64,000 nt of DNA, from the NCBI GenBank assembly GCA_037447655.1, contig JBBHKE010003464.1, positions 1 to 64,000 on the forward strand, given 5' to 3'. Under the pieces are notes generated by a model, which saw only the letters and a list, made by a program, of their open reading frames with translations, had not been told where the DNA came from and searched no databases. Both the position numbers and the translations under genes were made by a program. The stretch is from Zygnema cylindricum. Lineage: Eukaryota; Streptophyta; Zygnematophyceae; Zygnematales; Zygnemataceae. Shown piece after piece: positions 15,282-64,000 of the stretch. Numbering within the stretch: the stretch's first letter is position 1; each line of letters opens with the position of its first letter.

Positions 15282-15299
15282 TCCTTATCACTGTTTCAA

Positions 15300-33343: not shown

Positions 33344-33382
33344 CCTACGAGCGAAGATTGGGCATTTGTACGCGATTTAGAC

Positions 33383-33901
33383 GTGCTCGGAGCTTATGAT
33401 TTGGGGGCCCCTCGTCCGCGATTATACACGCGGATTCCCATGGCTGTGCGGATTATCGTACAGGACGCCCTCCACCTTCCTTTGTCCTGTATTTATTCGG
33501 ATCCCACGGATGTTGGACCTTGGCACCTCCTTTTCATGTTTTCACTTTGGGTTCTGGTCTTACCTGGCCGTGGGGGTGGTAGCGGGGATCGAGAAACTAT
33601 GGCCCGATGTAGACGTTTCCTTCGAGGTGATAGGCGGGCCCTTCATGCCGAGCACGAGGATCGAGTTGCAAGTGCTTCTTTCACTCCACGTCGTACATCT
33701 CGGACTTCAGACGTGCCATCTTCCTATCGTCGTGCGGTTCATTTGGGTCGAGTGGGTGAGCTCTCTCGAGCGGTTCGGGCCCTCCTGCCGCGACTGCTCC
33801 TCGGTCTGCCGCGACTGTTGAGATTCTCCGAGCTCTTCATCCACCAGCTCCTACTCCTCAGTCCCCCTCTATTCACACCTTCGAGCTGCCAGAGTGTTTA
33901 A
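33383..33901 (+). pseudogene. LINE copy 2: region between zinc finger and RT
   Basis: Matches 59-583 of copy 1 (GAYDLGAPRPRLYTRIPMAV and onward to RAVHLGRVGELSRAVRALLP). No domain recognised. The last 40 codons before 33901 are out of register and the RT begins in the next frame. Confidence 0.7.
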
Positions 33902-33903
33902 TC

Positions 33904-35426
33904 TTGGATCGAGACTCCTTTATTAAAGCCCTTACGACTTCTCCACATCTTTCAGCGGGGGGTCCTTCGGGCACTGTTTATGAGCTATTTCGCGACGTTT
34001 TGCCTCCGGAATCTGGTGCCCGAGGTTTTGATATGTTTTTTCGAGTTTGTTCCCTTATTGCGGCTGGCACTGTCCCTTCCCGTATTTGTGACCTCCTCAC
34101 GGCCTCCCGCCTCGTAGCTGTCACCAAACCCAATAGGGGAGTCCGCCCTATTGCAGTAGGCGAGGTATTGTACCGGTTGGTGGCCGGCGCCATCTGCATC
34201 CAGCTCCAGCCCGCTTTCATGATTATTTCTCTCCTCATCAGTTCGGAGTGGCAATCGGGGGGGGTTGTGAGGCCGTGGTCCTTGGGATTCGGGCTTTGTT
34301 AGATGCCCATCCGGATTGGTTAGTCCTCCAGGTGGATGTTTCTAATGCCTTTAATACAGTGGATCGGAATGCAATTTTTTCGGAGCTTATGGTTGCACCT
34401 TCCCCGATTGTCCAGATATTTCTTTTTGTGAGACCTTTTTTTTCTTTGAGCAGTAGCCTCTCTTTCTCCACTGATGATGATTTTGTCCCACTTTCCTCCA
34501 CGACTGGCACTCGTCAGGGTGATCCTCTTGGGGGCCCTTTGTTTGCCCTAGCCCATTACCGTGCCCTTCGAGCTTCTGCAGCTGCTTATCCTTCTTGCCT
34601 CTTCCCTTCACTTGCGGATAACACACACATTATTGGTCCTTCGGACCAAGTTATACCAGCCTACAACTTTTTCAAGGCTCACTTAGCCGAACTCAATCTT
34701 TCGGTCCAGCCCTCTAAGTGTGTTGTCTGGTCCCCACGTCCTATTCCTCCTCCTTTCACTCCCCCTCCTGGTTTTCAGACTCCTCCTCCTTCCGAAGGCA
34801 TTCGTGTGTTGGATTGCCCGCTTGGTTCTGATCCATACGTCACGACATTCCTTGATTCCGCTCTTCAGACAGATTTATCCCACGGGGACGACCTTCCTCA
34901 CCTTTCCGATCCCCAAGTGGCCTTTGCTCTTCTCACACGGTGTTTCCCTCACCGGCCCTCCTACCTTACTCGGACTTCCCCTCCCACCCCATCCTTTGTG
35001 TCCTCACTTTCTGCATTCGATGATCGGCTTATGGATGTCCTCCATACTTTGTTGGGTCGTGGAGCTTTTGATCGCGAGTTTGGGCCTGCTGCACGCATCC
35101 AAACCCCTCTTCCTGTCTTGGCTGGCGGTTTGGGTTTACTCTCAACGGCGCATGTTGCTCCAGCCGCCTATTTGGGGAGTTGGTGCATTGTTCCTTCCAC
35201 TATTGTCTCTCGTTTTTTGGCCGGGGACACTCCTATTCTTGCGGCCGTGGTTCCCCGTGTTTCGGATGGTGAGCTTGCCTTCCAGCGGTCCTTTTTGGAT
35301 GCATCACGTTCTCTTACTCCGACTGCTATCGAGGACATGCCGATTTTTTCCTCTCTCGTTATGACATCAGTTGCACGTGTTCAGGAATCCTTTTCTGATT
35401 GGGTTGTCGCCGCTATTAAATCCTAG
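33904..35426 (+). pseudogene. LINE copy 2: reverse transcriptase and thumb
   Basis: 33904-34302 holds HLSAGGPSGTVYELFRDVLP and KPNRGVRPIAVGEVLYRL. The frame then shifts to 34248-35426, open for 392 codons: GVAIGGGCEAVVLGIRALL, LQVDVSNAFNTVDR (motif A Asp), TTGTRQGDPLGGPLFALAH (motif B), SLADNTHIIG (motif C, where the second catalytic Asp is Asn), LNLSVQPSKCVVWSP (motif D/E) and the thumb and linker PHRPSYLTRTSPP...DDRLMDVLHTLL. The Asp-to-Asn change would abolish polymerase activity. The long open frame indicates a younger copy than copy 1. Confidence 0.85.
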
Positions 35427-35429
35427 CTT

Positions 35430-36022
35430 TTTGAGGCGCTTCCTTCCAATTCTTCGCGTGCACGTTTTCTCTCTTGTGGCGGACCTGGCTCTGGATCTTG
35501 GCTATTGGCCGTCCTTATCTTATCCACTCTTCGTTTCACCCCTGCTCAGTTCACCACGGCCCTTAGGTTCCGGCTTGGCCTCCCTCACCCACCTTTGCTT
35601 GGCTCACTTGTTTGCTCCTGCGGCCACGTTCTCGAGCCTGACGGGGTCCATTTGCTTCGTTGCTCCCACGGGGCGAGTCGATTCATGCGCACGATACGAT
35701 TCGAGACACCATCGCTACTATCGCTTCTAAGGGGGGATTTTCTGTTCGTCGCGAGGTCTCTCACATTATTCCTTCGCGCCGGATCGACCTTGTATTACTT
35801 GATGGTGCGCGTCGTACATTTGGTGACATTGTTTTAACGAACCCTACCTCGACTACAATCGCCAACCAAGCGGCTCGGCATATGGGAGTGGCTGCCCGTG
35901 ACGCAGCTAAAAGGAAAGAGCGTGATTGTGCCCATCGCGACGCTATGGATGGCTTCATTCCGATGGCGGTCGAGATATTTGGTTGTTTGGGTGTGGCTTG
36001 TTCTGTACTTGTGGTCGGCGCT
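35430..36022 (+). pseudogene. LINE copy 2: CCHC motif and restriction-like endonuclease
   Basis: In overlapping frames: SLVCSCGHVLEPDGVHLLRC with the CCHC knuckle (C-X-C...H-X3-C) at about 35600-35665, then HDTIRDTIATIASKGGFSVR, PSRRIDLVLLDGARR and FGDIVLTNPTST at 35660-35860. The spaced Asp residues fit a PD-(D/E)XK core. The domain would nick the target strand. It ends around FLYTCGRR, where the copia LTR begins at 36023. Confidence 0.8.
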
Positions 36023-42221: not shown

Positions 42222-43642
42222 TGTTGTTTCTGAAAAGTTAGTTTCGTGCGAACACATCGTTTCGTGCGTACGCGATGTTTCGTGCGTACGCATTTACGCG
42301 ATATATTGTGGAGGTTCGAAAGGATTTATGGATTGGGGAATTAAATGTACACATAAAATTAATGGAGTAATTGAGTGGCGCGAAATGTGAGAGGAAATGG
42401 ACGGCGGATCGCGAAGCAATCCGACGTGAGATAATCGACGAAGATAAAATGGTACGTCGCACGTACGAAACATAATGCGACAGATGAAATTTATTACATG
42501 GGATGCCGCCGGTACGGAGCGTCGTATTTGACAGGTGTACTTTAAGTTGTCGCTTATTGCGACATTCATTTATCGAAAATGACGTGTACCTTAAATGCGA
42601 CAAGGCGCATTTATGACGAAGTACGTGATTTCGGTACGGACAGAATTGGATCGTACGAATTGATTTCGGCAAGTTGGTCATGGTACACGTGGAGGGCGAA
42701 TGTCGTCTACCGATATTTTCAAGGGATCTCATCATCTTTAATGACGCATTATCTAGTGGACCGTACATATGCGATGTCGGTTCACTACGTGGACTTATCG
42801 ACAAGTGACTAAGCAAGTTGTCACTTATGACGCGGATTTTTGGATGCGTCGGTGTAAATATTTGAAGCATCAATGTTTTGTCTTATTTGAATTAATGATT
42901 TAGTGTTGATTAAAATAGTTATATTTTACGTGATTAATGAGGATATCGACACTTTAATTTATGTGTCGTATTTGCAGACAAGTGTACGCTTACGATTGCT
43001 TGACTTTCAGGTGTATGCTTACGATTAGTTTGATTTAATGACAGTTACGTAATTTACGTTGGTTATTTTGACACTTAGTGATTTGTTAACAGCTCACAAG
43101 TGTATATATAGATTTGAGCTTCATTAGAATAAATAATCAATGGTGGTTAGTAAAAGTGGGGACCGAAGATGTAAACTTTTAGGGTTGCCGATTAGGTCAT
43201 GCATTTGGGTAAATGTGTTTATTGGTATACTTCTCTTTATTTAATGTTTATGTGAGATTGCACTCTTTTGTTATTATTTATTTATGTTGTTTTATATATG
43301 TTTGATATGCATTGTTTATGCATTTGTCCTAGGGTTTGTTTATGTCGATTATTCCATCAAACCTTAGATGTTGTCATAGGGTTTATTTATGTTGATTATT
43401 CCATGAAACCCTAATTGTTGTATGTTAAATGGAGGATGCATTTCAAATGATTGTTCATTGGCCTAGCTTCGCTTAGCTTCTTGCATGATAGTTTGGGTGG
43501 CTTCTGCGGTCCATTTTAGACCAGATGAACAACAGGTTATGGGCCCACACCCCATCTATCATATGTTAGGTTAAGTCGATGTAGGTTTTTGTCACACGCA
43601 TTGTAGCGGGTTAATATTGTCCTTGCTGGTTGTATTGCAGTA
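42222..43642 (+). mobile_element. family B LTR 1 with leader
   Basis: LTR 42222-43534 (TGTTGTTTCTGAAAAG...GAACAACA, 1313 bp), followed by the primer site GGTTATGGGCCCAC at 43535 and a leader shared with LTR 2 up to GCAGTA (43642). It matches 47607-49074 throughout. The first part is rich in CGTGCGTACG words; the second part is AT-rich with AAACCCTA motifs. The element's coding region is missing after the leader. Confidence 0.8.
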
Positions 43643-47215: not shown

Positions 47216-47606
47216 TATCTCCGCGGCGAACAATGAAATGCGATTGATAATGGAGGCTCATGTTATTTTGAAAGCTTTAGTCCTCACTAAAGTCTCCTAT
47301 GTGAGGGGAGTGTCTTCTAGGTACTTAGTTTATTTTGTGGAAACCCGTTTCACTATGTACTTGAATTAGTGTGACAGTGAACAATGAAGGAGTACACTGA
47401 GTATCACATTAGCGGGACACGCGTCAGCAAACTGATATGAGACACTCCGCAATGTTTATGGTCTACGACTCTGATTCACCGGAAAACCGAGATGTTACAC
47501 AAAGTTTCATCTTGGATGAAACTTCTGAAAGATGGACGACGCAGATTTGCTACCGACAGATGCTGGTTAATCGGGACCACGTCTATGATTATCGAACGTG
47601 TTCTGT
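47216..47606. other. no gene assigned
   Basis: Includes GTGAGGGGAGTGTCTTC at about 47298, which resembles a purine tract plus LTR start, and a 62-codon plus-strand open stretch (47437-47625) without recognisable motifs. Confidence 0.4.
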
Positions 47607-49074
47607 GTTCTTTTTGAAAACTTAGTTTCGTGCGTACAGAGCGTTTCGTGCGTGCGCGTGTTCGCGTGCGTGCGCATTTACGCGATGTAGTGTGGAGGTT
47701 CGAATTGATTTGCGGATTGGGGGAGTAAATGTACGAAGAAAATTAAATGTACATGAAGGACTAATTGAGTGGCGCGGAATGCGCAATGTAAATGGACGGC
47801 GGATCGCGAAGCGATCCGATTTGAAATTTTCGAAGTGTGAAAATGTACGCATGGCGTACGAAACAAAATGCGACAAGCACATTTACTACAAGGGACGCGC
47901 TTGCGGTACGAAAATGATTTCGATTGTACGAGGTTTCGACAAGTGGATTTTTATGACCACGCGGCGCGACATCAAAGGTGCCGATTAAGAGCGACGGACG
48001 GCGGATATAGGCCGCCAAGTTTTTTATGTAGTGGTGACGCGAAATCGCGTCAATCACACGATATTTATTTTTGGACGTTCCGGATTGTTTGACAAGTGAT
48101 TCGTGGTACACGTGGAAGGCGGATGGCGTCCGCCGATATTTCCAAGGGATCGTATTGTTTGATGACGTGTTAATTAGGTGGACCGTACATATACGATGTC
48201 GGTTCACTACGTGGATTTATCTGCAAGTGACTAAGCAAGTTGTCGCTTATGACGCGTATTTTGCGGACGCGTCGGTGTAAATATTTGAAACAATATTGTT
48301 TTGTCGTATGTGTATTATTAATTTAGTATTGATTATGACATTTTTATTTTAAGTGATCAATTAGGGTTTTCGATAGTTTAATTTGTGTGTGTACAATATC
48401 ATACTTGTAGACAAGTGTACGCTTACGATTGCTTGACTCTCAGGTGTACGCTTACGATTAGTTTTATTTAATGACAGTTATGTAATTTACGTTGGTTATT
48501 TTGACACTTAGTGATTTGTTAACAGCTCACAAGTGTATATATAGGTTTGAGCTTCATTAGAATATTAATCAATGCTGGTTAGTAAAGTGGGGACCGAAGA
48601 TGTAGTATTTTAGGGTTGTCGATTAGGTCATGCACTTTGAATGATATAATGATTATTTGATTATACTTTGATTATACTCTTGTTTATGTGTGATGCATTT
48701 GTTTTTATTATTTATTTATGTTATTTTATATATGTTTTGCATTGTTAATGCATTTGTCCTAGGGTTTATTTATGTCGATTATTCCATCAAACCTTAGATG
48801 ATGTCATAGGGTTTATTTATGTTGATTATTCCATGAAACCCTAAATGTTGTTGTATGTTAAATGGAGGATGCATTTCAAATGATTGTTCATTGGCCTAGC
48901 TTCGCTTAGCTTCTTGCATGATAGTTTGGGTGGCTTCTGCGGTCTATTTTAGACCAAAGAACAACAGGTTATGGGCCCACACCCCATCTATCATATGTTA
49001 GGTTAAGTCGATGTAGGTTTTTGTCACACGCATTGTAGCGCGTTAATATTGTCCTTGCTGGTTGTATTGCAGTA
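47607..49074 (+). mobile_element. family B LTR 2 with leader
   Basis: LTR 47607-48966 (TGTTCTTTTTGAAAAC...GAACAACA, 1360 bp) plus primer site 48967-48980 and the leader to GCAGTA at 49074. It then changes directly into minus-strand methyltransferase sequence. So this copy sits in, or was joined to, the DNMT-bearing element. Confidence 0.8.
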
Positions 49075-49219
49075 GGGGTGAATATTTTTTAAGACGTACC
49101 CCACTGGCGTGTGTTGGCGTCCATCTAACTCGTTTATCAGTCGCGTCATCTGAAAGAATGTTCTGCTACACACATCCTGGTGTCCCCTTCTCTATCTTGG
49201 TAACGAATACCCAGGCACG
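49075..49219 (-). pseudogene. C-terminal part of the cytosine-5 methyltransferase domain
   Basis: On the minus strand one frame reads FFQMTRLINELDGRQHTPVG then YVLKNIH. This matches the stretch after the PCQ loop in C5 methyltransferases (RS.LF...RLI..L....GYVLENV). The motif VI Glu-Asn-Val is changed to Lys-Asn-Ile. The end nearest 49219 continues the Pro-Cys of motif IV from 55574, with one frameshift just after it (GYS follows in the shifted frame). Motif VIII and the target recognition domain are missing. Confidence 0.7.
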
Positions 49220-50216
49220 TGTTGAAATTAGAAGGTTTTCTTATGTATTTTCTATGTTTCTTAAGTAATATAAGATGAGGAAGGAAAAGCGTAGGCAGCC
49301 TGCTTCCAACTTCTCTCTCTAGCCTGCATACTTGTCGTAGTCACTAGAGGCTGAAAAAGAAGCTAAAGCCATGGCTGCCTATGCTTCTCCTAGAGTAAAA
49401 ATGCAGTCTTTTGTTTAACTTACCAAAAAGGTTAACGAACCCAAGATTTGATTCTGGTACCTACCGTTCGTTCAAATAGCCCAACATCGTTACCATGTAG
49501 TCTAGCACCTATGTCAAAGTATATAGGGTACGAAAGCTACTTAAAGTTGTGCAGATAGGAAAGTTCATTTAACTGACGAAAAAACCACGATCACATTGAC
49601 ACAGTTAAACAGAATCACATCAAAAAGCACTGCTAGTATTTTAACGGCTATTAATTAAGGCCAATATCAATCAAACGGCGGAGGAAGAAGCCGGCATCAC
49701 AGAATGAACATTTTCGCGGTTTGCGGTCACAGTCACACCAAGTGACATGTGGCAACCAGACATTGGATGGCGGCATCTCCGGGACATACCATGGCGAACT
49801 TGGACATGGCAGGAGTCATCTCCTTGGCCATGTCGTATAATGGCCGTACAGAAAGTACTCCGCGCCAAGTACCTTTTTTTATTGTCCACTGAATTGATTG
49901 GCCGCGTACTTTGGTAGTAGAGGGTTAAGAGAGGCATTCAGGACTTAGAAAATAGATGTAGCAGCCTCTCTCCCAGAGCGCTTCTGTATAAAATGTCATT
50001 TTTGACCATTGATAATTTACTGCTCAGGGGAGCAAATTCAAGGATTCTTTTTGTGGCAGACTCAAAGGATTCAGCTCTACCAAGGGGTTCTTTTTGGTCA
50101 GTCAATATTCTATTAGTGTGTCGGCAATACTCATACAAAGACTAAAGGATTGAGGTTATCCTAAAGGCTTCATGTAAGCTGCCACTCTGAGTACCAATGG
50201 AGGTCTCAGAGTTGCA
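49220..50216 (+). repeat. copia E 5' LTR
   Basis: TGTTGAAATTAGAAGG...TCAGAGTTGCA. Antisense tRNA-like minihelix at 49434-49472 (AACGAAC/GTTCGTT stem), TATA box TGTATAAAAT at about 49985, hairpin TGCTCAGGGGAGCA at 50021-50034, second hairpin at 50056-50075. Confidence 0.88.
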
Positions 50217-50231
50217 GGTTATGGGCCCACC
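50217..50231 (+). other. primer-binding site, half tRNA-iMet type, with gag ATG
   Basis: GGTTATGGGCCCACC, identical to 19927-19941. The ATG at 50221 opens MGPPSRVPIFNGTGFIY, then TGA. Confidence 0.85.
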
Positions 50232-51500
50232 CTCTAGGGTGCCCATATTCAATGGGACTGGGTTCATCTATTGAAGAGTATGATGATAGGAACCGTATGT
50301 GATAAAAGATTTTGGGGAATAGTGAGTGGGCGAGTAAAGTGCCCATCCGGTTCTGTTATCACTCCAAGGTTTGGAGGAAGCAGATTTGGTAGGAAACCAG
50401 ATCCACCGCCGTCAAAGGACTTAGAAGATGCAGAAAGCATCATGATGAAATGGGGAAGAGAAAGAGAAAACCACACCTATAGCAACCGGATTTGTTTTCA
50501 TGTCTTCTATTCCGAGGAATGAGGAGAATGACATCGATACCTGGGACTACAACATGGGGGCCAAGCATTTTATCCTCCGTCATCTCACACAAGGACTCGC
50601 ATGTCCTCATTTGTAGGTGGAAAGGGCATCCAATCTGTGGGATACGCTTATAGAGATGTACTATAGTGGTACTATTCAAGAACATAAACTAGCAGATCAA
50701 AGGATCAATGCATACTTTCACAAAGGAGAGAAGATGCTTGATTTTTGCAATAAGCCAGCTATACTCTTCATGGAGTTAGAGTGTGCCGGAAAAGTAGAAA
50801 CCTAGAAGGCAAAGGTTCATTGCTTACTCATGAAACTACCCGATGAGTATGAGAACATTGTGAACCGAGTACAGGATCTGCGGACTCCAGGTGGATATGG
50901 AATTCGGTAGTTAGTATGATCCTCGTCTGAGAGAATACAATCAAAATTCGGAGGGGAGTTAAGAGTGGACAAGCCTTGGCGGCCGGAGCAAGTTGGAGAA
51001 ATAAAGATTCATAGAAATCCCTTGGAAGTTATGGAGGGGAAGACCAAAATAATCAATCCGATGAGTCCGGAACAATGGGACCAAAGGGGCTTTGTCATTT
51101 CTGCAAGAAACTCGGGCATTACATTGCGGAATGTACCAAACTGACTGAGCTTCAGATAAAGGAGGGCCAGACCGGGGTCAGCCACGAGGGAAGAAAAAGG
51201 CACTTCTCACACAGTTATTCGAGGAGGAATATGATGAGGAGGACGACGAACTTCTTTTGGATGAGGAGTTGGAGGCAAAGACTGAAGTCGATATTCCACG
51301 GAAGCAGAAATACGCTTTCGTTGGACTGAAAGGTGAAGGAGGTTGGATTGTGGATTGAGGTGCCTCCATGCACATGTGCAAGGATAAACATCTGTTCACT
51401 TAGCTGAGAAAGAACCCTACAGTAGAGATTGAATATGGGGATGGGAGGGTAGTTACCACTACTTATGTAGGATCGGTAGATGTGAAAGTCATAGTGGAGG
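50221..51500 (+). pseudogene. copia E: Gag and protease
   Basis: Broken into several frames. MGPPSRVPIFNG start; 50617-50805 gives ASNLWDTLIEMYYSGTIQEH and KMLDFCNKPAILFMELE; the zinc knuckle CHFCKKLGHYIAEC lies at about 51094-51135; then an acidic segment, IPRKQKYAFVG and the protease GGWIVD*GASMHMC near 51344, where the active-site Ser codon has become TGA. So protease is inactivated exactly at the catalytic triplet. Confidence 0.85.
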
Positions 51501-51559
51501 GAAAAACATCAATTGTTACGTTTCTCCGATGTATTGTTTATATTGGAGTTAAACAAAAA

Positions 51560-52787
51560 TCTTATCTCTACATCTGTTTTAGATGATTAAGGATTTGAAA
51601 CTATCACCAGAAAAGGAGTTTTTACAACTAGTTTTGAGGAAGATGTGTATTTCACTGCTGAGAAAGGTAGCCAAGGAATGTTCAGGCTTGCTTTAAATAA
51701 TGGAAATCTCAATCTTTACTATGGTGGTGTTAATGATATTATGTTGTGGCATACGAGACTTCGGCATGTGAATCTAGAAAAGCTAAAAGGTATGAAAAAG
51801 ATGGGAGTAGTTAAAGGGATACGCTTTGGGGAAAATGAGAATCTAATTTATTGTAGTGGGTGTGCTCAGGGTAAAGCACACAGATTACCATTTATAAAGG
51901 AAGCAACTTATAAAGGAGAAAATATTTTTGATTTGGTACACACGGATATTTGGGGACCGGTAAGAGTGCCATCACCCGGAGAAAACAGATTTATGTTAAC
52001 CATTACCGATGATTGGTCTCGGGACTCCCGGGTATACTTTCTAAAAAAAAAATCCGAAACTCCGGAGTATTTCAAACAATATAAAGCATGGGCCGAGAAC
52101 CTTCACAAGACATCAATAAAGAGAGTAAGAAGTGATAATGGAGGGGAATATACCTCCAATCAGTTTGAAGATTTCTTAAGAGAGGATGGTGTGCAACATC
52201 AAAAGACAATTCCTGAAAACCCGGAAAAGAATGGTGTTGCCGTGAGATTAAATAGGACATTGAATGATTATGCACAGAGTATGTTATCAGATAAAAGGAT
52301 AAGAAAAAGATTTTGGGCCGAAGCTATGAATTGTGCGAAATATTTGAGAAATAGAGTACTTACTTTGGCTGTGAAAAACCAAACTCCATATGAGAGATGG
52401 ACAGGCCGAAAACCAAATCTATCTCACTTAAATGTTTTCGGTAGTAAAGTCTTCAGTTTAGATATAGAGAGATCTAATTGGAAACTTGATCCTAAAGGGA
52501 AACCCGGATATTTGCTAAGATATGATGAGGATGTAAAAGGGTATAAAGTGTATGATCTAAGAAGAGAAGATATAATTCTAGTAAAGCACATGGTAGCTAT
52601 GGATGAAGAGAAGTCGGTAGATCCCTTCAAATCCTCAAAGTCAGTTAAAATCAGATTTGAGTTAGACAATTCTAATGACTTTCACCTTCCCAACTATCTG
52701 GGTCTCCAAGAAGATGATACTCTTGCAGGGTCAGACGATATTCTTGCAGGCTCAAAACAGACCGAGAAGACTTGGAAACACTGGTGA
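51560..52787 (+). CDS. copia E: integrase
   Basis: 380 codons open (51645-52787), the longest uninterrupted pol piece in the window. HHCC module: MLWHTRLRHVNLEKL and CSGCAQGKAHRLPF. Core: DLVHTDIWGPVRVPS (Asp), ITDDWSRDSRVYFLKK, RVRSDNGGEYTSN (Asp), PEKNGVAVRLNRTL, where the catalytic Glu of the usual NGVAER is Val. C-terminal part: RKPNLSHLNVFGSKVFSLD, PGYLLRYDEDVKGYKVYDL. Active-site loss despite an open frame suggests fairly recent decay. Confidence 0.85.
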
Positions 52788-52789
52788 CA

Positions 52790-54005
52790 CCTATACTTGA
52801 AGCGAAAGACGTGGTGGAAACGGATATGGATCCGAGGGATAGGGGAGAAGCCGTGGTGATTCAAAGAATTCACGGGAACCATCTATTCCGGCCGCAAATT
52901 TTGAGGGAGGAAGAAGAAGCACCAAAAGGCTTTAAGAAAAACAAGTTAACAATAAGGTATCTAAACTTTCTCACCAAGATGAACCTCAAACATATGGAGA
53001 GGCAATAAATTGCCCGGAGAGAAACCGGTGGAAGACAGCCATCAATGAAGAGATAGCTTCAATCATGGCGGCTGATACATGGGAGTTGGTGGACTGTGTA
53101 ACTGGTCGCAAACCAATCGTATGTAAGTGGGTTTTCAAATTAAAACTGAATCTTGACAATACTATTGAGAGGTATAAGGCCTGGTTAGTGGCCAAAGGTT
53201 TAACTCAGAAAAAGGGAATAGACTACGAAGAAACTTTTGCTCCAGTCGTCTGATTTCCCTCGGTCCGAATACTTCTCAGTCTGGCAACTGTAGAACACAT
53301 AGAAGTACACCAGATAGACATCAAAACTGCCTTCTTGTCTGGAGAACTAGAGGAGGAGATCTTCATGTGACAGTCGGATGAATTCGTGGAACAAGGAGAA
53401 AAGAGTAAGGTATGCCGGCTGATCAAATCTCTCTATGGATTGAAACAGGCGCTTAGACAATGGAACAAGAAACTTGATGAGTTCCTTACTGGTCTGAGAT
53501 ACATTCGGATCAGTTTAGATCATTCAATTTATGTTTTGAAGATGAGAAAGGTGTCATCTTTTTTGCAATTTACGTAGATGATTTGCTTGTTTTGAGTAAG
53601 TCAATGGAGAAAATCAACAAACTAAAAACAGATCTGAAGGGAAGATTTGAGATGAAGAACATGGGGGAAGCAAGATATATTATGGGAATACAAGTAGAGA
53701 GAGATAGGAAAAAGAGAATAATTAGACTAACTCAGAAAGAGGCAATTGGAAACATGTTGGAAAAATTTCAGATGGACAAAGCCAACAGTTGTACAACTCC
53801 CATGGATCTAAAGAAGGGAAGTGAGGGGAGTGAGGAAGGAGACATCCTAATTCTAGATGATGAACTAGGTCTAGAAGAGAGGAAATTCATGCAGACTATC
53901 CCATACAGACAGGTAGTGGGCAGTCTGATTTATTTCATGAATTGTACCAGACCGGATTTGGCAGCAGCTGTAGGAGTGCTAAGTAAGTCTGAATGCTCCT
54001 ACTAA
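52790..54005 (+). pseudogene. copia E: reverse transcriptase
   Basis: Linker near 52840, then 53065-53253 (TWELVDCVTGRKPIVCKWVF, LVAKGLTQKKGIDYEETFAP), stop at 53253, VHQIDIKTAFLS (motif A) in the next piece, 53386-53577 (RLIKSLYGLKQALRQWNKKL), and FAIYVDDLLVLSKSM reached by a frameshift near 53540-53580. 53583-54005 holds the connection ending AAAVGVLSKS. YVDD intact. Confidence 0.85.
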
Positions 54006-54530
54006 AAGGGATTAGGAAGATGCTAAGAGGGTCCTTAGATATCTCATAGGAACTAGGGATCTATTGCAGTATCTTGGTTGGGAAAATACAGACATCACCA
54101 CTTAGAGTGATGCCAACTATAGGGATGCTCCGATGCGAAGATGTACATCTGGATATCTGTTGTATGTGGGGAATGGTGCTTGTTGCTGGAGCAGTAAGCA
54201 ACAAAAGGTCATCGCTCAGTCCACCATGGAGGCTGAGTGTATTGCATTTTGCTTTGCTTTGAAGGAATTGATGTGGATCAAATCCTTGCTTGGTGAATTG
54301 GGGCACCTTAAGAGTGGAATTCAAAAAATATTCTGTGATAATCAAGCAGCAATTGCAATTGCTGCTTATCCTAAACATCACTTTAAAGCAAAGCACATGG
54401 ATATTAGACTTAGCTTTCTTAGGGAAAAGTGGAGAGCAAAATAATAAGTCTATAATATAGACCAGACAATGAAATGGTGGCAGACATGATGACAAAGCCT
54501 GTGCCTTCTCCTAAATTAATATTTTGTAGA
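54006..54530 (+). pseudogene. copia E: RNase H
   Basis: 54133-54444 open: MRRCTSGYLLYVGNGACCWS, STMEAECIAF (Glu kept, Tyr lost), FCDNQAAIAIAAYPKHHFKA. The upstream Asp region (DITT*SDANYRD) carries a TAG. The tail MVADMMTKPVPSP is in frame 3 near 54476. Confidence 0.85.
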
Positions 54531-54576
54531 GAGAAGTGTAGACCTAAATTTAAAAGTGACTAGAAAATAAGGGGAG

Positions 54577-55573
54577 TGTTGAAATTAGAAGGTTTTCTTA
54601 TGTATTTTCTAGGTTTTTTAAGTAATCTAAGATGAGGAAGGAAATAGCAGAGGCAGCCTGCTTCTAGCTTCTCTCTCTAGCCTCCATACTTATTGTAGTC
54701 ACTAGAGGCTAAACAAGAAGCTAGAGCCATGGCTGCGAATGCTTCTCCTAGAGTCAAAAGGCAGCCTTTCTTTAACTTACCAAAAAGGCTAACGGACAAA
54801 GGAATTGATCCTGGTACATACCGTCCGTTCAAATAGCCCAGCATCGTTACCATGTAGCCTAGCACCTGTGTCGAAGTACATAGGGTACGATAGCTACTTG
54901 AAGATGAGCAAATAGGAAAGTTCATTTAACTGATAAACGGACCCCAATAGCATAGACACAGTTAAACACATTCACATTGAAAAGTACAGCTTCTATTTTA
55001 ACGGCTATAAATTAAGGCCAATATCAATTGGACGGCGGAGGAAAAAGCCGGCATCGCGGAATGAACATTTTGGCGGTTTAACGTCACAGCCACACCGGGT
55101 GACACGTGGCAACTTGACATTGGATGGCGGCATCTTTGAGACATACCATGGCGAACCAAGACATGCTAGGCATCATCTCCTTAGCCATGACGTCCAATGG
55201 CCGTACTCAAAGTACTCCGGCCCAAGTACCTTTCTCTACTGTCCACTAAATTGATTGGCTCCGTACTTCAGTAGTAGAGGGTTAAGAGAAGGGTTCAGGA
55301 CTTAGAAATAAGATGTAGCAGCCTCTCTCTCAGAGCGCTTCTGTATAAAAGGTCATCTTTGACCATTGATAATTCACTTCTCAAGGGAGCAAATTCAAGG
55401 ATTCTTTTTGTGGCTGACTCAGGGAGTCAGCTGTACCAAGGGGTTCAGTTTGGCCAGTCTGTATTCTGTCAGATTGTGTGCAATACTCATACAAAGACTA
55501 AGGGATTGAGGTTATCCTAGAGGCTTCTGGTGAGCTGCCCACTCTGAGTACTAATTGAGGTCTCAGAGTTGCA
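54577..55573 (+). repeat. copia E 3' LTR
   Basis: 997 bp. The antisense minihelix at 54791-54829 has stem AACGGAC/GTCCGTT, i.e. a paired change relative to the 5' LTR. TATA box at about 55341-55350, hairpin GCTGACTC/GAGTCAGC at 55413-55431. Confidence 0.88.
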
Positions 55574-56065
55574 CCACGGCCATCCAACGACCACCGGATC
55601 TACCCTTCCAAGCTTTTCCAAATGTGACTTCGTGATGTTGTCCACATTATGGGGAAGAGTGCGGTGAGAGTTAGACATGGCAGACACCGGGAGTTGCTGT
55701 GGGTAAAGTTGGTGTAGCTGTTGTAGTCGATACTCACTGACTGCACGGGCGTCCGGGTCAATCTCGACTGACGAGTACGCTTCTACTCGGTATCTTGATA
55801 TTAGAACGGCTTCGAAGTTGGAACTAATGCGGGAAAATAGTGATAGAATTTTGAGTCCAGAAGGCGGTATCTCTACTGACACCACTTGTTGATTGAAATC
55901 CTTCCCTTTGTTAAAAACCTTTGGAAGTTCTAACCGGATAACCTTTGTTGTTCCGGGTAATATAGCGGTAAAGCTCCTATCCACTTCACGTCGAAGTGTG
56001 GTCAACAGCACCAATCTGTTCTGATACTCCCTTTCCCACGACTTGGAAATAGGGAATTGCTAAAT
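55574..56065 (-). pseudogene. N-terminal part of a DNMT3-like cytosine-5 methyltransferase
   Basis: Would transfer a methyl group from AdoMet to C5 of cytosine in DNA. Numbering from the TTG at 56014: motif I at residues 56-64 (ILSLFSRIS, where Arg replaces the usual Gly of SGI/DGI), the acidic AdoMet-ribose residue in SSVEIDPDARAVSEYR (Glu84), HNVDNITKSHLEKLGRVD at 122-139, parallel to DVRNIT..N.EEWGPFD of DNMT3, then VVVGWPC, the motif IV loop with the catalytic Cys, completed across the copia E target site. The upstream 48 residues have no known domain. The frame continues upstream across copia G into the protease with one TAG. Similar to DNMT3 rather than DNMT1/CMT by the NIT..LE..G..D..V.G.PC pattern. 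The motif I change suggests inactivity of this copy. Confidence 0.75.
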
Positions 56066-56070
56066 GGAAT

Positions 56071-57058
56071 TATTGAAATTCAAGGTATTTTCTAGGTTAC
56101 TTAATTAATTTAAGTAAGAGCTGTAAAAATTAGAGGCTGTCGGCTTCTAGCTTCTCTCTCTAGCCTCCATACTTGTCGTAGTCACTGAAGGCTGGAGAGG
56201 AAGCTATAGCTATGGCTTCCTAGGCTTCTTCTAGTGTCAAAAGGCAGACACTTGGTAATCTTACCAAATGGATTGACGAACCCAGGATTTGATCCTGGTA
56301 CCTACCGTTCGTTAAAGTAGCTGTTAGTCTTTTCCTGTAGTCTAAGACCTGTGTTGAAGTATATAGGGTACGATAACTATTTAAAGATGACAAAATAGAG
56401 AAGTTTGATTTATTGACAAACGAACCACAATAACACAGACACAGTTAAATCAAATTACACCGAAAAGTATTGCTTGTATTTTAACGACTATAAATTAAGG
56501 CGGACATCAATCTAACGGCGGAGAAAGAAGTCGCCATCACTGAATGGTCGATTTGGCGGTTTGCGGTCATAGCCACACCGGGTGACATGTGGCAACATGA
56601 CATTAGATGATGGCATCTCCAAGACATACTATGGCGAACCCGGATATGGCAAGCGTCGTGTTTGTGGCCATGTCGTACAATGGCCGTACAGAAAGTACTC
56701 CGAGCCATGTACCTTTTTGTACTGTACACTGAATTGATTGGCTCCGTACATTCGTAGTAGAGGGTTTAGCGAGGGGTTTAGGACTTAGAAAATAAGAGGT
56801 AGCCGCCTCTCTCCAGATAGCTCTTCTATAAAAAGGTCATCTTTGACCATTGATAATTTACTGCTCAGGGGAGCAAATTCAAGGATTTTTTTTGTAGTAG
56901 ATTCAAAGGAGTCTACCCTTCCAAGGGGTGCAGTTTGGTCAATCTGTATTCTTTTAGGGTGTCACCAATAATCAACCAAAGACCTCTTAATAGAGGCTAT
57001 CCTAGAGGCTTCTAGTAAGTTCCCTACTTTAAGTACCAATGGAGGTCTCACAGTAGCA
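56071..57058 (+). repeat. copia G 5' LTR
   Basis: Begins TATTGAAATT (mutated TGTTG), ends AGTAGCA. Antisense minihelix 56275-56313 (GACGAAC/GTTCGTT), TATA box TCTATAAAAA at about 56826, hairpins at 56862-56875 and 56897-56916 (GTAGATTC/GAGTCTAC). Confidence 0.85.
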
Positions 57059-57372
57059 GGTTATAGGCCCACCCTCTAGGGTGCCCATATTCAATGGGAC
57101 TGGGTTCATCTACTTGGAGAGTATGATGATAGGAGCCTTATGTGAGAAAAGATTTTGGGGAGTAGTGAGTGGGCGAGTAAAGCGTCCATCCGGTTCGACT
57201 ATCCCTCTAGGGTTTGGAGGAAACAAATTTGGTAGGAAACCAAATCCACCACCATCAGAGGACTAAAGATGATCTAAAGAGAGAAGATATAATTTTAGTA
57301 AAGAATCTGGTAGCTATGGATGAAAGGAAGGCGGTAGATCCCTTTAAATCCTCAAAGTCAGTCAAAATCATA
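57059..57372 (+). pseudogene. copia G: gag start joined to integrase C-terminus
   Basis: 57081-57266 reads VPIFNGTGFIYLESMMIGAL, the Gag start without the TGA seen in copia E. It ends KPNPPPSED and then jumps to DDLKREDIILVKNLVAMDER, normally the end of integrase. The junction near 57268 marks the internal deletion. Confidence 0.75.
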
Positions 57373-58408
57373 TGTTGAAATTTATAGATTTCTAGAGTAT
57401 CTTCTAGGTTTAAATATGTTTGTATAAAAAGAAAAAAAAAGGACGGACAGCCTGCCTCCACCTCCGCTCTCTAGCCCTCATACTTGTTGTAGTCATTGAA
57501 GGTTAGAGAGGGTGGTTCATCCATGGCTGCCTTAGTTCAACAGGCAGCTATTTTTAGTAGGTTACTAAAAATATAATTGACGGACTAGAGATTTGATCCC
57601 GGTACCTACAGTTCGTCAAGTTGGTCGGTAGCGGTCAGCTTTATCCTAATAGACTAGGACCAATGCTAAGTGCTTTGGTATGTGAAAGATATATATATAG
57701 ATTGGGTGAGTTAAATCCATTTAACTAAAACTGTTTACGGCGTACATAGATTCAGTTTTAGAAAGTACGTCATACGATAGTAATTCAAAACGGATACCAC
57801 GCATTTTGTTTCGATAGCGAAACAAATGCCGCGCAAGTATTTATTACGGCTAACATTGCGTTTTGCATAAAATCCAACGGCGCACATCATCGCAAAAATC
57901 CCGGAATGGTCACTTTGGCGTTTTGTGACGTGGCATGACCTGGAGCCACGTGGAAAGATGACATTCGGTCATAGGAATTCCGAGGAAAGTACGGACAAGT
58001 GAAATGAGGACACGTGTCCGCTTAATAGTCTTGTCGTACATAGGCCGTACAAAAGGTACACCGGCAGTAGTACTTTTTGTATGGTACAGTAATCTGATTG
58101 GTCCATACTTCAATAGATAGAAGTTATTAGAGAGAATCAGGACTTAGAAAATTTTGGTAGGTAGTCACCTCTCCCTTTGAGAGTTTGTACAAATTTTCAT
58201 TTTTACTGCCTCATAACTTATCTCCTGGTTGGGCGTTTTCAGAGATTCTTTTTCATACAGACTCAGGGGAGTCCAGGCTGCACAGGAATGCATTCGGATT
58301 GTCAGCTTGATTGCCTAGCCAGCAGTGGCTGTGGGTTAAAGTGGGCTAGTTAACAACTATCTAGAGGCTTCTTGTATTCTGTAGTCGAATGGAGAACACA
58401 GAATTGCA
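57373..58408 (+). mobile_element. solo LTR H (D type) nested in copia G
   Basis: 1036 bp, TGTTGAAATTTATAG...GAATTGCA, flanked by TCATA and TCAGA (5-bp duplication with one change). Removing it restores the copia reading SVKI-RFE. No internal region, so it arose by LTR recombination. Antisense minihelix at 57579-57617. Confidence 0.88.
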
Positions 58409-59421
58409 TCAGATTTGAGTCAAACAATTTTGATGACTTTCATCTTCCTTACTATGCGGGTCTTCAAGAAAATGATAATCTTGCAGATTCAAAACGCACA
58501 GAGAAAGACTTCAACTTGGAAAAACCAATGACAAAAGCGGAAGACGTGGTGAAAACGGATATGGATCCGAGGGACAGGGGAGAAGTCGTGGTGATTCGAA
58601 AGAATCCACGGTACCATCTATTCCGGCCGCAAACTTTGAGGGAGGGAGAAGAAGCAACAAAAGGCTTCAAAAGATAAAAGTAAACATCAAGGTAACTAAA
58701 CTGTCTCACCCGGACGAACCTCAAACATATGAAGAGGCAATGAATTGTCTGGAAAGAAATTGGTGGAAGACGGTCATCAATGTAGAGATGGCTTCAATCA
58801 TGGCGGCTGATACATAGGAGTTGGTCGACTGTTCACCTGATAGAAAACCAATTGGATGTAAGTGGGTTTTCAAACTAAAACTGAATTCGGACAATACTAT
58901 TGAACGGTATAAGGCCCGGTTAGTGGAGAAAGGTTTTACTCAGAAAGAGGGAATTGACTTCAAAGAAACCTTCGCTCTGGTCGTCAGATTTCCCTCGGTC
59001 CGGATACTTCTCAGTCTGGCAGCTTTAGATGACATGGAAGTACACCACATGGACATAAAGACAGCTTTCCTACATAGAACTAGAGGAGGAGATCTTCATG
59101 CAATAGTAGGAAGGATTCGTGGAACAAGGGGAGCAAAGTAAGGTATGCCGGCTGATCAAATCTCTCTATGGTTTGAAACAGGCACTCAGACAATGGAACA
59201 AGAAACTTGATGAATTCCTTACCGGTCTGGGATACATCTGCATCAGTTCACATCATTCAATTTATATTTTTGAAGATGAGAAAGGTGTCATCTTTATTGC
59301 AAATTACGTTGATGATCTTCTTGTTCTTAGTAAGTTATTAAAGAAAAGTAACAAACTAAAAACAGATCTAAAGGGAAGATTCGAAATGAAGGATATGGGG
59401 GAGGCTAGATATATTCTGTAA
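58409..59421 (+). pseudogene. copia G: linker and reverse transcriptase
   Basis: Linker at 58409-58677 (RFESNNFDDFHLPYYAGLQE...), then 58821-59141 (GCKWVFKLKLNSDNTIERYK, VHHMDIKTAFLH motif A), a frameshift, and 59119-59421 (RLIKSLYGLKQALRQWNKKL, FIANYVDDLLVLSK with intact YVDD, DMGEARYIL). Continues in other frames to about 59760 with stops near 59503, 59644 and 59748. Confidence 0.85.
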
Positions 59422-59759
59422 TTCAAGTAGAGAGAGATAGGAAAAAGAGAATAATTAGACTAACTCAGAAAGAGGCAATTGGAAACATGCTGGAAAAATT
59501 TTAGATGAACAAAGCCAACAGTTGCATGACTCCCATTGATCTAAAAAAGGGAAGTGAGGGGAGTGAGGAAGGAGACATCCTAATTCAAGATGATGAACTA
59601 GGTCCAGTAGAAAATAAGTTTATGCAGACTATTCCATACAGATAGGTAATGGGCAGTCTGATATATTTTTTGAATTCTACCAGACTAGATTTGGCATCAG
59701 TTGTAGGAGTGCTAAGTAGGAGTCTGAATGCTGCTACCAAAAAGGATTAGGAAGTATCT

Positions 59760-60305
59760 AAGAGGGTCCTCAGATATCTCATAGGAACTAGGGATCTATG
59801 ACTACATCTGGGTGGGGAAAACACTGACATCACCACTTGGAGTGATGCCAGCTAGGGGGATGCTCCGATGCGAAGATGTACATCTGGATATGTGTTGTAT
59901 GTGGGGAATGGTTCTTGTTGCTGGAGAAATAAGGAGCAAAAGGTCATTTCTCAGTCTACCATGGAGGCTGAGTATATAGCATCTAGCTCTGCTGTGAAGG
60001 AATTGATGTGGGTCAAATCCTTGCTTGGTGAATTGGGGCATCTTAAGAGTGGAATTCAAAAAATATTATGTGATAATGAAGCAGCATTTGGAATTGCTGC
60101 TAATCCCAAAAATCATTTTAAAGCAAAACACATGGACATCAGACTTAGCTTTCTTAGGGAAAAGATGGAGAACAAAATATTTAGTCTAGAATATAGACCA
60201 GACAATGAGATGGTGGCAGACATGATGACTAAGCCTGTACCTTCTCCTAAATTAATTTTTGCAGAGAGAGATGTGGACTTAAAATTAAAAGTGACTAGAA
60301 AATAA
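59760..60305 (+). pseudogene. copia G: RNase H
   Basis: 59868-60305 open for 145 codons: MRRCTSGYVLYVGNGSCCW, STMEAEYIASSSAVKELMW (Glu), LCDNEAAFGIAANPKNHFKA (Asp), ISLEYRPDNEMVADMMTKP-like tail (FSLEYRPDNEMVADMMTKPV) through to the purine tract. The first Asp region (TTWSDAS*GDA) has a TAG. Confidence 0.85.
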
Positions 60306-60311
60306 GGGGAG

Positions 60312-61299
60312 TGTTTAAATTGAAGGTATTTTCTTGGTTACTTAACTAATTTAAGTAGGAGCAGTTAAAAGCAGAGGCAACCTGCTTCAAGCTTCTCTCT
60401 CTAGCCTCCATACTTGTCGTAGTCACTGAAGGTTGGAGAGGAAGCTAGAGCCATGGCTGCCTATAGTTCTTCTGGAGTCAAAAGGCAGACCCTTGGTTAT
60501 CTTACCAAAAGGATTGACGGACCCAAGATTTCATCCTGGTACTTAGTGTCTGTCAAAGTAGCTGTTAGTTTTATCCAGTAGTCTAAGACCAGTGTTGAAG
60601 TATATAGGGTACAATAGCTATTTAAAGATGACAAAATAGAGAAGTTTGATTTACTGACAAACGGACCACAATCACACAGACACAGTTAAATAAAATTACA
60701 CCGAAAAGTACTGCATGTATTTTAACGTCAATAAATTAAGGTGGACATCAATCTAACGGCGGAGAAAGAAGCCAACATCGCGGAATGGTCGATTTGGCGG
60801 TTTGCGGTCATAGCCACAACGCGTGACACGTGGCAACATGACATTGGATGACGACATCTCCAGGACATACTCTGGCGAACCCGAATATGGTAAGCGTCGT
60901 CTTTCTGGCCATGTCGTACAATGGCCGTGCAGAAAGTACTCCGGGCCATGTACCTTTCTGTACTGTACACTGAATTGATGGCTCGGTACATCAATAGTAG
61001 AGGGTTTAGAGAGGGGTTTAGGACTTAGAAAATTAGAGGTAGCCGCCTCTCTCCTAGAGAGCTCTTGTATAAAAAGCTCATCTTTGACCATTGATAATTT
61101 ACTCTTCAAGGGAGCAAATTCAAGGATTTATTTTGTAGTAGACTTGAGGGAGTCTACCCTTCCAAGGGGTGCAGTTTGGTCAGTCTATATTTTGTCATGG
61201 TGTGAACAATACTCAACCAAAGACCTTTTAATTGAGGCTATCCTAGAGGCTTCTAGTAAGTTGCCTACTATGAGTACCAATGGAGGTCTCAGAGTTGCA
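60312..61299 (+). repeat. copia G 3' LTR
   Basis: 988 bp, TGTTTAAATTGAAGG...CAGAGTTGCA, preceded by AATAAGGGGAG. Antisense minihelix 60516-60554 (GACGGAC/GTCTGTC), hairpin 61138-61157 (GTAGACT/AGTCTAC). Confidence 0.88.
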
Positions 61300-62105
61300 A
61301 GAATCAACGATATCGGTGGAGCCTTTTAATAGCTCCGAAGGGGTGGATGCAGCATACACCCGATAGCATCCAAACATTGAAACAGTTGTTCTCCCTCGGT
61401 TCCATAAATCTAAGGGGACCATCACTTTGGTGCCCTCTGGATTCTCCAGGTCTGAAACTGTAAATTGTTCCTTCCAAACGCTTAATTCCATGTTCAATCT
61501 TGTCCACGTAGCCATACCCAACAAGATTTCAAATTGCTTACCTTCCAGCACAAGGAAGGGAAGCTAAATTTGTACGTGTTGTCCCGCGGCATCCGCAAAT
61601 TCGATTTCTATTGCTTTTATGATGCCAAATACTCGTTGGCTACCATTGTTGACCGTACTCAGGCATATGTCACTTTGGCTGATTTTTGACCGGAGTATTT
61701 ATGGCATTTGTTACAATGCTGGTTGGTTATGAGGTTAGGGAGGGTTTCGGTATCCACCACTGCATATTGATACCCGCCGTTTCCATTAAGTTTAAAATTT
61801 CCAGTCCTGATAAGAATAAGAGCCACCGACAGGGCTTTATAATCTCTATCCGCCATAGAAGTTTTTGGTTCCGCCGACATGAAGACTTTTTTGGTGGTTC
61901 TGCCAACGCGACCCTTTCCATCCTGGTGTGCATCTCTTCCCCCAGTGCATGAATTAGGGTTTTTTGGGGCAAATTGTGGGAGGATGTAAGCACCTTGATG
62001 TGCGTCAGTGCGTAGGGCATCAGGTGTTGTACCAGCATAACTGCCGGTTTGGAGGAAGGAGGGTGAGCTTAGGGTGATGAAATGGGTGAGTCCTCGTCTT
62101 TCCAT
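61300..62105 (-). pseudogene. aspartic protease of the DNMT-bearing element
   Basis: In the 62105-61659 frame GYQYAVVDTETLPNLIT near 61754 is the active-site region, with Asp-Thr-Glu where Asp-Thr-Gly is expected. After one frameshift near 61660 the second half reads CLSTVNNGSQRVFGIIKAIE, then past a TAG (61564-61566) LPFLVLEGKQFEILLGMATW, the hydrophobic-Gly (ILLG) motif that closes retropepsins. It continues LWNRGRTTVSMFGCYRVYAA and STDIVDS up to the copia G target site, where the same frame enters the methyltransferase. The protease would cut the polyprotein. Confidence 0.7.
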
Positions 62106-62599
62106 TTCTCATCTATCCCCCCCCCTTTGCTTCCTCACTTTCTGTGTCAGAGTTTCCAGTTGGAGGTGTAATCGGTGGGTGTGTCGCTGGTCTTTCAGCC
62201 AAGTATCGGTCGAACCATTCTTGATCCGTTTCGGATGTTCAAGGATCCTTTTTTGGCTGTGGTTTCATGTACCTTTCGAAGCCGGGAGTAAGTGTCTTTG
62301 AAGCCGGAGGAGGCGGATGAGTCGATTTTAGGCCCAACCCTATGTTACTATTCAGAAGGACTGCTGTTGATGTGAATGATAAAGGACCAGTGGCTTTGCG
62401 GCTGTGGTTCTTTTCTTCCATAGGCTATTTATTCTTTCTCTGAGAGGACGTTGTAGAGCGCAGTTGTCTGCGTCTGTCCCCGACTCCAACATTCCAGGTT
62501 CCGAACAGAATTATTCGAGCGTGATGAGCCTTTGGAGGCTCTATATCCCAACCCATCAGGTCATCATCATCTCCATCTAATCTGGTCTGCTGCTCCAGC

Positions 62600-64000
62600 T
62601 CCGCCAGCCTTTACATCAATTTTTGTTTTTGTTTCTATAGTTTTTGAGCCAGCTTCAAAGCCAAGCGGAGAGCAACCAGTTTTGTTGCCAAGGTGGCCAA
62701 TTGAGTGTTTTGTTGCTGAATGATATGTTCCGGCGTCAATCTGCTGGGTCCTAGTTCATCGGGAGATCGACGTCTCCGGGGATACAAAAGTTGCATTGGC
62801 AGAGGATTAACGGTTGTTTCCCCTTTGTCTGTGAACAAAGCATATTGCAGCATTTCTTTTGGGACCCCATTCTTTAGGAAACATTGCCCTTCTTTGTGGC
62901 CCATAAACCCCAAGCCTCACATTTGGACCACTCATTGGTATACTTCTCCCTTAGCTCATTAGAGATCTGAGCATCATCAAATTTAGGAAGTCTGATTTGT
63001 CTCAACTAGGATAGAGACATCTTCGTCGTCTCAGAGCGGGGAGTAGGTTTATAAGTGTCTTTGGTTTCCGGCTTGCGATCCCCTCCTCCGCTTCCCTGCC
63101 TACGTTCGTGCTACTAGCAGGTTCTTTCTGCACGTTCTTTCTCAAACTCCTTTTGCTTGATAGTGAGTTCCGGGTTGAGCTTCTTCGGGCATCGTTACCA
63201 CCCGTGACCGGTTTGGTTGCAGTTCAGGCAGTTGTACATGTAAACTTTTTCATCTGCACCCATTGCAGGTTCGCGTTTGGACTCATCTTCCTGTTTCCCC
63301 ATAAGCTTCTGTAAAGCTTGGAGTTCTGTTTGTTCCTTTTGGTTAAAAGAGGATTCCCGCGTGAAACCTGCGAAGTTGGCTCACGCCTTTCCGGTAACAG
63401 CCTTTTTTCGGGCCTTGCTGTTTACAAAATGATCATATAACTTTATAGCAGCCAATGAAATTTCTAGCGTTGTGGGATTCCTGTCGTGGATTGCTCGACT
63501 GGCACTCTAATTGTCGAGAGCGGCCTATCCTGTTGGTCTGAATGAATTATGAACAACGACATAATTATTTCGTGGCCATGGTTGGTGTGTCAATGGTAGA
63601 CAACTTGGTCTTTTGACAAAGGCTCCAAAGGCGGTTGAATAGCGTTTGAGGAATTTTATTTTTCAAACATCGAAAGTCAGTGAACCCCTTGATTGGAGTT
63701 TCGTTACTTTGTGTATAAAGGAGTCCCAAGGCGTCTATAATGAAAGGATCGATAACACAATCGGAATGCGCAGAAAATTGACAAATTACACAATGCGGAA
63801 GCGAATTTAACTCAATGTCAATTATCAACCAGCTCACATACATTAAATCCTCATGAACATAGATAGAGACATATATAATTCAGAAGAGGAATTCACATTA
63901 ATTCTCATACATTAGTTCTACAATGATTTCTCCTTAGGTTCTCCTTAGTGGTTCCCTTAGTAATATCTAATTCCCTCGCTGGCTGACATTTTAACTTAGT
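62600..64000 (-). pseudogene. gag of the DNMT-bearing element (partial)
   Basis: Highly mutated. A zinc knuckle YNCLNCNQTGHGW*RCPKK lies at 63189-63230 (C-X2-C-X4-H-X4-C, with a TAG inside). Upstream 63843-63565 is open for 92 codons (DPFIIDALGLLYT, GFTDFRCLKNKIPQTLFNRL) and could be capsid, though I recognise no family. Between 62600 and 63100 short frames such as TNEWSKCEAWGLW appear. The start lies beyond the window. Confidence 0.55.

Follow-up and report, generated by a model that had tools for sequence, protein, structure and literature searches.

Retroelements that carry DNA methyltransferases (DNMTs) have been described before: Dnmt3 is found in gypsy elements of Klebsormidium, and DNMTs are found in DIRS and LINE elements of Symbiodinium (PMC5890265; this paper and PMC12344493, PMC6338049, PMC6453930 and PMC9289625 are cited from excerpts). 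The DIRS-borne DNMT3s are reported to have de novo CG activity, and the Klebsormidium copies (KnitGypsy-Dnmt3) are fewer than those in Symbiodinium (PMC5890265). Retroelements of this kind are mentioned again in PMC12344493, methyltransferase-bearing gypsy elements are stated in PMC6338049 to be absent from land plants, and plant DNMT3 is placed in non-flowering plants in PMC6453930. Here we describe a 64,000-nucleotide stretch of the genome of Zygnema cylindricum (contig JBBHKE010003464.1; hereafter the window), which holds a dead, twice-interrupted Ty3/gypsy long terminal repeat (LTR) retrotransposon whose pol region starts with a C5 cytosine methyltransferase. The lineage to which this copy belongs is real and has recently inserted members elsewhere in the same genome, and the window copy is its fossil.

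An interrupted methyltransferase element

A preliminary description of the window, made from its letters alone, had proposed that a C5 methyltransferase of DNMT3-like type lies inside a retroelement. The genome itself bears this out, as evident by copies 73-80% identical that stand between protease and reverse transcriptase (RT) in gypsy elements. The window holds two pieces of the enzyme, together about half of it, and both match the methyltransferases of other genome copies, with E values down to 7e-89 and 1e-17. Because these relatives match, the methyltransferase identity of the two pieces is settled. By blastp, the window copy groups with elements L181, L182, L186, L191 and L192, and we call its family family II. 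Against this family, the first methyltransferase piece (56059-55574) is 73-80% and the second (49212-49075) 70-79% identical, protease-region pieces are 64-93% and most gag pieces ~60-92% identical, and some short or out-of-frame pieces have lower identity. The remnants of the element, and the sequences that interrupt it, are laid out as follows.

62860..63741, minus strand: gag remnant, equivalent to residues 423-716 of the L182 frame in the gag position (three tblastn pieces, 74-79% identity)
63189..63230, minus strand: CCHC zinc knuckle CLNCNQTGHGW*RC with one internal stop, read by eye
61300..62134, minus strand: remnant of the aspartyl-protease open reading frame (ORF), equivalent to residues 1-278 of the L182 protease ORF (76-84% identity)
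56071..61299, plus strand: copia A, inserted in the gypsy element (LTR K80 0.113)
56060..56062, minus strand: TAG stop directly before the methyltransferase ORF, then CAATTC; same place in 27/27 aligned copies
55574..56059, minus strand: first methyltransferase piece, the start of pol, with linker, motifs I, II and III and the first half of motif IV
55574..55578, no strand: copia B target-site duplication over the catalytic-cysteine codon, read by eye
49220..55573, plus strand: copia B, inserted in the methyltransferase (LTR K80 0.147)
49215..49219, no strand: other copy of the copia B duplication, one base different, read by eye
49075..49212, minus strand: second methyltransferase piece, with motifs V and VI and KNI in place of ENV; matches residues 164-209 of L182 pol
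47606..49071, plus strand: LTR of another family at the end of the methyltransferase piece, its orientation inferred from a primer-site-like sequence

The preliminary description had also read motifs I to IV in order on the minus strand. LSLFSRIS, EIDPDARAVSEYR and DNITKSHLEKLGRVD do share a single open frame (56059-55517, minus strand, 180 residues, the final 18 contributed by the copia LTR), but VVVGWPC is not contiguous, because copia B is inserted there and the window reads VVVGWPW at the junction. MTRLINEL...GYVLKNI, part of the 49212-49075 piece that relatives match, is located within 49158-49075 in a frame that differs from that of the catalytic-cysteine codon. Reading by eye, each of the two copia elements lies between copies of a 5-bp duplication that differ at one position, and for copia B this difference falls in the catalytic-cysteine codon. 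This codon is thereby split by copia. The copy is dead, given that KNI replaces ENV, the motif I glycines are lost, insertions interrupt it and its frames are broken, several times within the gag remnant.

Residues 1-179 of L182 pol map to 56059-55523 of the window and residues 164-209 to 49212-49075. L182 gag residues 1-422 and pol residues 263-1520 (RT to PHD) found no match in the window or in the next 10 kb, and methyltransferase motifs VIII to X and the target recognition region are absent from the window. The LTR that ends at 49071 also ends the methyltransferase piece, and its partner, starting at 42222, sits in a copia flank without a matching duplication; the rest of the gypsy element was therefore lost or moved. 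This LTR pair (42222-43640 and 47606-49071, K80 0.21) has outer flanks that belong to different elements and share no duplication, and it probably arose by recombination between two insertions. The observed/expected ratio of CpG is 0.89 in the stretch 55574-56065 (only 24 CpGs), whereas the two copia elements have 0.58 and 0.51.

Searches of Pfam, PHROGs and PDB sequences with the window pieces gave no firm match. The first methyltransferase piece has no Pfam match at E<=10, and among PDB sequences RAD50 comes first (E 0.74) and DNMT3C second (E 2.1). Viral-contig scans with the window pieces confirmed no relative, and tblastn of phages gave only chance-level matches. The protease pieces alone matched no protease family; a retropepsin profile of four DDI1-type sequences placed the window protease piece second of 961 ORFs, but with E 2.4. 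A single-sequence fold reached a mean pLDDT of just 41, and no conclusion here draws on it. A C5 methyltransferase profile of 79 sequences was built without the window, combining DNMT3A and two DRM2 with 76 sequences from bacteria and phages, the part kept of 88 loci. With this profile, the first piece scores 20.0 bits (E 3.8e-5) and ranks first among the 961 six-frame ORFs of the window, and its shuffled versions reach at best 7.4 bits among the 3329 listed of 5000 shuffles. The piece at 49.1 kb is weak alone (E 0.95 and rank 5 with the 79-sequence profile, E 0.14 and rank 2 with an 8-sequence profile), and 4 and 5 of 5000 shuffles score as well.

One might suppose from the failure of Pfam to recognise the window piece alone, and from the lack of RT in the window element, that the piece is a gene of the host or of a bacterium with no relation to the element. 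However, its copies stand between protease and RT in LTR-bearing elements, and the adjoining protease and gag pieces match the same elements as the window methyltransferase does, which makes this explanation vanishingly improbable. The more specific proposal of a host gene was ruled out by the location of the relatives inside LTR elements.

A profile of 76 DNMT3-type sequences gives the first piece 19.3 bits, compared to 2.0 bits from a profile of 78 HhaI-type sequences (77 of 80 viral loci plus M.HhaI), and mean pairwise z is 6.0 against the DNMT3-type set and 0.8 against the HhaI-type set. As judged from these comparisons, the enzyme belongs to the DNMT3-type class, which also holds bacterial and phage relatives, and is closer to it than to the HhaI type. 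The description ‘DNMT3-like’ is upheld as to class, but the trees neither show nor reject descent from a eukaryotic DNMT3. In trees of 70 and 33 rows, the retroelement methyltransferases, the window included, make up a single clade (100/99) with a long stem. This clade does not group with DNMT3A and DRM2 in either tree, and forcing that grouping gives p-AU 0.085, which does not reject it, in trees that have only three eukaryotic rows and long branches in play. The methyltransferase may have been captured from a host DNMT3 or, alternatively, from a bacterial or phage-type enzyme.

Relatives in the same genome

The 352.8-Mb assembly contains 782 candidates for PF00145, the Pfam DNA_methylase family. 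All of the 123 that were scored exceed the curated cut-off, 85 without and 38 with a stop inside the match, and 11 of the 85 stop-free places are within open frames of more than 900 residues (longest 2395). For 15 of the 123 places, chosen for long frames or high scores, we extracted the surrounding 10 kb. The preliminary description had named two findings that would speak against its proposal, namely the lack of a C5 profile match and an ordinary host gene; instead, the relatives match PF00145 over its cut-off and adjoin protease, RT and integrase.

Domain order was scanned through with Pfam in two elements. L178 is one frame of 2395 residues with CCHC, Asp_protease_2, DNA_methylase, RVT_1, RNase H, H2C2 and rve integrase, and a PHD finger; its PHD match is over the cut-off, its zf-CCHC match (20.3 bits, cut-off 20.8) and its Asp_protease_2 match are under. 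L182 has a protease ORF (Asp_protease_2, 22.3 bits, cut-off 24.3), followed by DNA_methylase, RVT_1, RNase H, integrase and a weak PHD match (17.9 versus 24 bits). Methyltransferase, RT, RNase H and integrase are over their Pfam cut-offs in both elements. The Pfam methyltransferase match in these scans, and in the best genome rows, spans at most model positions 2-158 of 324, and the remainder is divergent or missing in the relatives.

Six more elements were scanned at the integrase end. PHD is over the cut-off in L180, L183, L184 and L185 and under it in L181 (21.8 bits), and the L187 frame stops within the integrase. In total, a PHD match was seen in 7/8 elements scanned at this end and is over the cut-off in 5. 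Direct LTRs of 931-1475 aligned bp flank 6/7 elements examined, and the L182 element is ~16.3 kb from LTR to LTR. No tyrosine recombinase is among the Pfam matches of the relatives, which have an rve integrase instead. With RT and RNase H before the rve integrase, and with direct LTRs, the relatives are by their sequence organisation Ty3/gypsy LTR retrotransposons.

The seventh element, L181, yielded no direct LTR pair; an inverted repeat is present near its ends (G000:C544:121504-122257 and 136749-137500, 768 aligned bp, 71% identical). In all six LTR-paired elements (L178, L180, L182, L183, L184 and L189), the junction between internal part and LTR lies within the palindrome GACAGCTGTC.

LTR divergence indicates a range of ages. 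The LTRs of L178 are 100% identical over 931 bp, and K80 is 0.0036 in L183, 0.0041 in L184, 0.021 in L182, 0.032 in L189 and 0.14 in L180. In L178, the proline beside the catalytic cysteine is replaced (AGWEC versus the AGWPC of family II), and this is a copy with identical LTRs. These ages bear on the proposal that the methyltransferase serves silencing, whereby the element would mark its own insertions or their surroundings and be tolerated by the host. Many copies persist in the genome, as such tolerance would predict, and a host benefit through a slower transposition rate is discussed in PMC5890265. However, young copies exist (LTRs 99.5-100% identical in L178, L183 and L184), and silencing, if any, is therefore incomplete. 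We consider this role unlikely.

A conserved stop and the possible fate of the methyltransferase

The protease ORF and the methyltransferase-pol ORF of L182 share a frame, with a single TAG between them. We searched 47 stretches (46 loci and a window piece, several being flanks or family I) with the first 80 residues of this pol ORF, and obtained 27 matches including the window. A stop occupies this codon in 27/27, with TAG in 25 and TAA in 2. The six bases that follow are CAATTC in 24/27, including copies whose identity across those 80 residues is no more than 33-36%. Because the stop is present at 27/27 family II places, the TAG of the window is, on this alignment, inherited. Decay as the source of the TAG was ruled out by its presence at 25/27 places and that of TAA at 2. 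Reassignment of TAG is unlikely given its absence from 3915 codons (the 2395-codon frame of L178 and the 1520-codon pol frame of L182), which hold 188 CAA and CAG, though these frames were chosen as long and open and are stop-free by construction.

A conserved in-frame stop of this kind suggests programmed readthrough in family II. A known leaky stop context is TAG-CAR-YYA, which TAG-CAA-TTC fits only in part. This imperfect fit leaves room for bypass of the stop by reinitiation or RNA processing, but the reading frame does not change across it, the stop and its following bases are kept in copies 33-36% identical, and the first 18 residues of L182 pol lack a methionine. Bypass by these means is, in our judgement, somewhat unlikely.

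With readthrough retained as the preferred explanation, we envision the following course of events. Downstream of a frame in the gag position, the relatives encode protease, methyltransferase, RT, RNase H and integrase, and end in a PHD finger at the C-terminus. In family II, the most likely outcome is that occasional readthrough of the TAG yields a long Gag-Pol, which would take the methyltransferase into the particle together with RT. There the enzyme could methylate the new double-stranded cDNA of the element, such that this DNA might resemble host DNA on nuclear entry, or might land already marked. The PHD finger would bind histone tails and steer integration.

The methyltransferase might instead modify RNA, either the genomic RNA of the element or its primer tRNA. 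RNA methylation has been suggested for a LINE-borne DNMT that is inactive on DNA in yeast (PMC5890265), and the changed motif IV of L178, in family I, would be compatible with another substrate of this kind. Set against this are the profile assignment of the domain to the DNMT3-type class of DNA enzymes and the de novo methylation of CG by DIRS-borne DNMT3s (PMC5890265), and we regard an RNA target as quite unlikely.

In favour of the main scheme, most family II stretches keep the motifs expected of this class of enzyme, with AGWPC in 24/27 and ENV or ENI in 25/27, and the ratio dN/dS of the methyltransferase segment has a median of 0.24 and a range of 0.04-0.72 (Nei-Gojobori, 70 pairs with dS 0.05-2 among 18 open copies free of gaps). 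Several observations weigh against methylation of cDNA by an element of this design. The upstream 716-residue frame of L182, in the gag position, matches no Pfam family, and protease and CCHC knuckle matches in the relatives are below Pfam cut-offs. At the six LTR-paired elements, whose ends are possibly misplaced by some bases, inspection by eye showed no target-site duplication. In family I, motif IV of L178 is AGWEC and the other seven stretches failed the motif pattern; moreover, 6/8 family I stretches have no stop within the 160 codons before the methyltransferase, with L184 and L189 having one. Finally, the dN/dS of the methyltransferase is lowered by the dropping of copies with stops or gaps, and is above that of RT (0.24 versus 0.10, RT over 9 pairs).

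On balance, we lean slightly towards the scheme as a whole, that is, a Ty3/gypsy element with a methyltransferase-led pol, readthrough, cDNA methylation and PHD-steered integration. A more elaborate version is put forward tentatively and with less assurance. It holds that a recently active streptophyte gypsy lineage carries both an epigenetic writer (the DNMT3-type methyltransferase before RT) and a reader (PHD after integrase), and that family II makes the methyltransferase-RT-integrase-PHD product only by TAG readthrough; a small dose of methyltransferase per particle would then mark the cDNA before PHD places it in chosen chromatin. This version is kept at slightly lowered odds, since only two elements were scanned through for domain order and two of the PHD matches are weak.

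Other features and comparison with described elements

Elsewhere in the window, a stop-free frame of 1026 residues (12204-15284, minus strand) contains ~147-bp tandem repeats and matches no Pfam family. Two copies of a non-LTR retroelement (1-2666 and 33328-35995) are 73% identical, with an RVT_1 domain in the second, and at 32397-32788 a 68-bp unit is repeated 5.8 times in tandem with 95% matches. In the window, no RNA family passed the Rfam gathering thresholds, and ARAGORN gave no match either. GRAS factors are characteristic of land plants and Zygnematophyceae, and the GRAS family (PF03514) has 27 matches on 12 contigs of this genome and none in 14 control genomes, which makes a streptophyte host, though not necessarily a land plant, most likely.

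Gypsy elements with Dnmt3 were already known; within the reach of our searches, novelty lies in the PHD finger, the conserved stop and the copy number. Searches of the texts (not figures or supplements) of openly licensed papers found neither a PHD finger nor a conserved stop reported for methyltransferase-bearing gypsy elements. With the present elements, this type is known from one more genome, where its copies are numerous and where a predicted chromatin-reading finger and a conserved stop are added to it; the elements may both write and read epigenetic marks. Since a single genome holds copies ranging from near-identical LTRs to fossils, it becomes possible to measure both selection on a retroelement methyltransferase and the effect of this enzyme on the methylome.

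Chromoviruses are gypsy elements with a chromodomain, a chromatin-binding domain, after the integrase, and without a methyltransferase. The Zygnema elements differ from them in having PHD where the chromodomain stands, and a methyltransferase in addition.

The words methyltransferase, methylase and DNMT are nowhere mentioned in PMC7264820. Among 121 angiosperms, no DNA methylase is included in the domains discussed in the excerpts of PMC9289625, where not every domain is listed. That study does describe an m6A demethylase domain in gypsy elements of orchids; these elements resemble the present ones as a plant gypsy lineage with a captured nucleic-acid-modifying domain, and differ in that the demethylase domain is in an extra ORF.

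The remaining comparisons are with PMC5890265. SymbioDIRS-Dnmt3 and SymbioLINE-Dnmt of Symbiodinium are likewise DNMT-bearing retroelements, and in the DIRS element the enzyme shares an ORF with RT. However, these elements have a tyrosine recombinase or an endonuclease rather than an rve integrase, and no retroviral-type protease is mentioned for them in the excerpts. KnitGypsy-Dnmt3 of Klebsormidium nitens also carries an intronless Dnmt3-type domain in the Pol ORF of a streptophyte gypsy element. Purifying selection is reported for KnitGypsy-Dnmt3, with Ka/Ks under 0.2, and the median dN/dS here is likewise low at 0.24. The excerpts on KnitGypsy-Dnmt3 mention neither PHD nor a stop before the methyltransferase. 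Its repeats are described as DIRS-like, whereas direct LTRs flank 6/7 of the Zygnema elements, a comparison made by description only.
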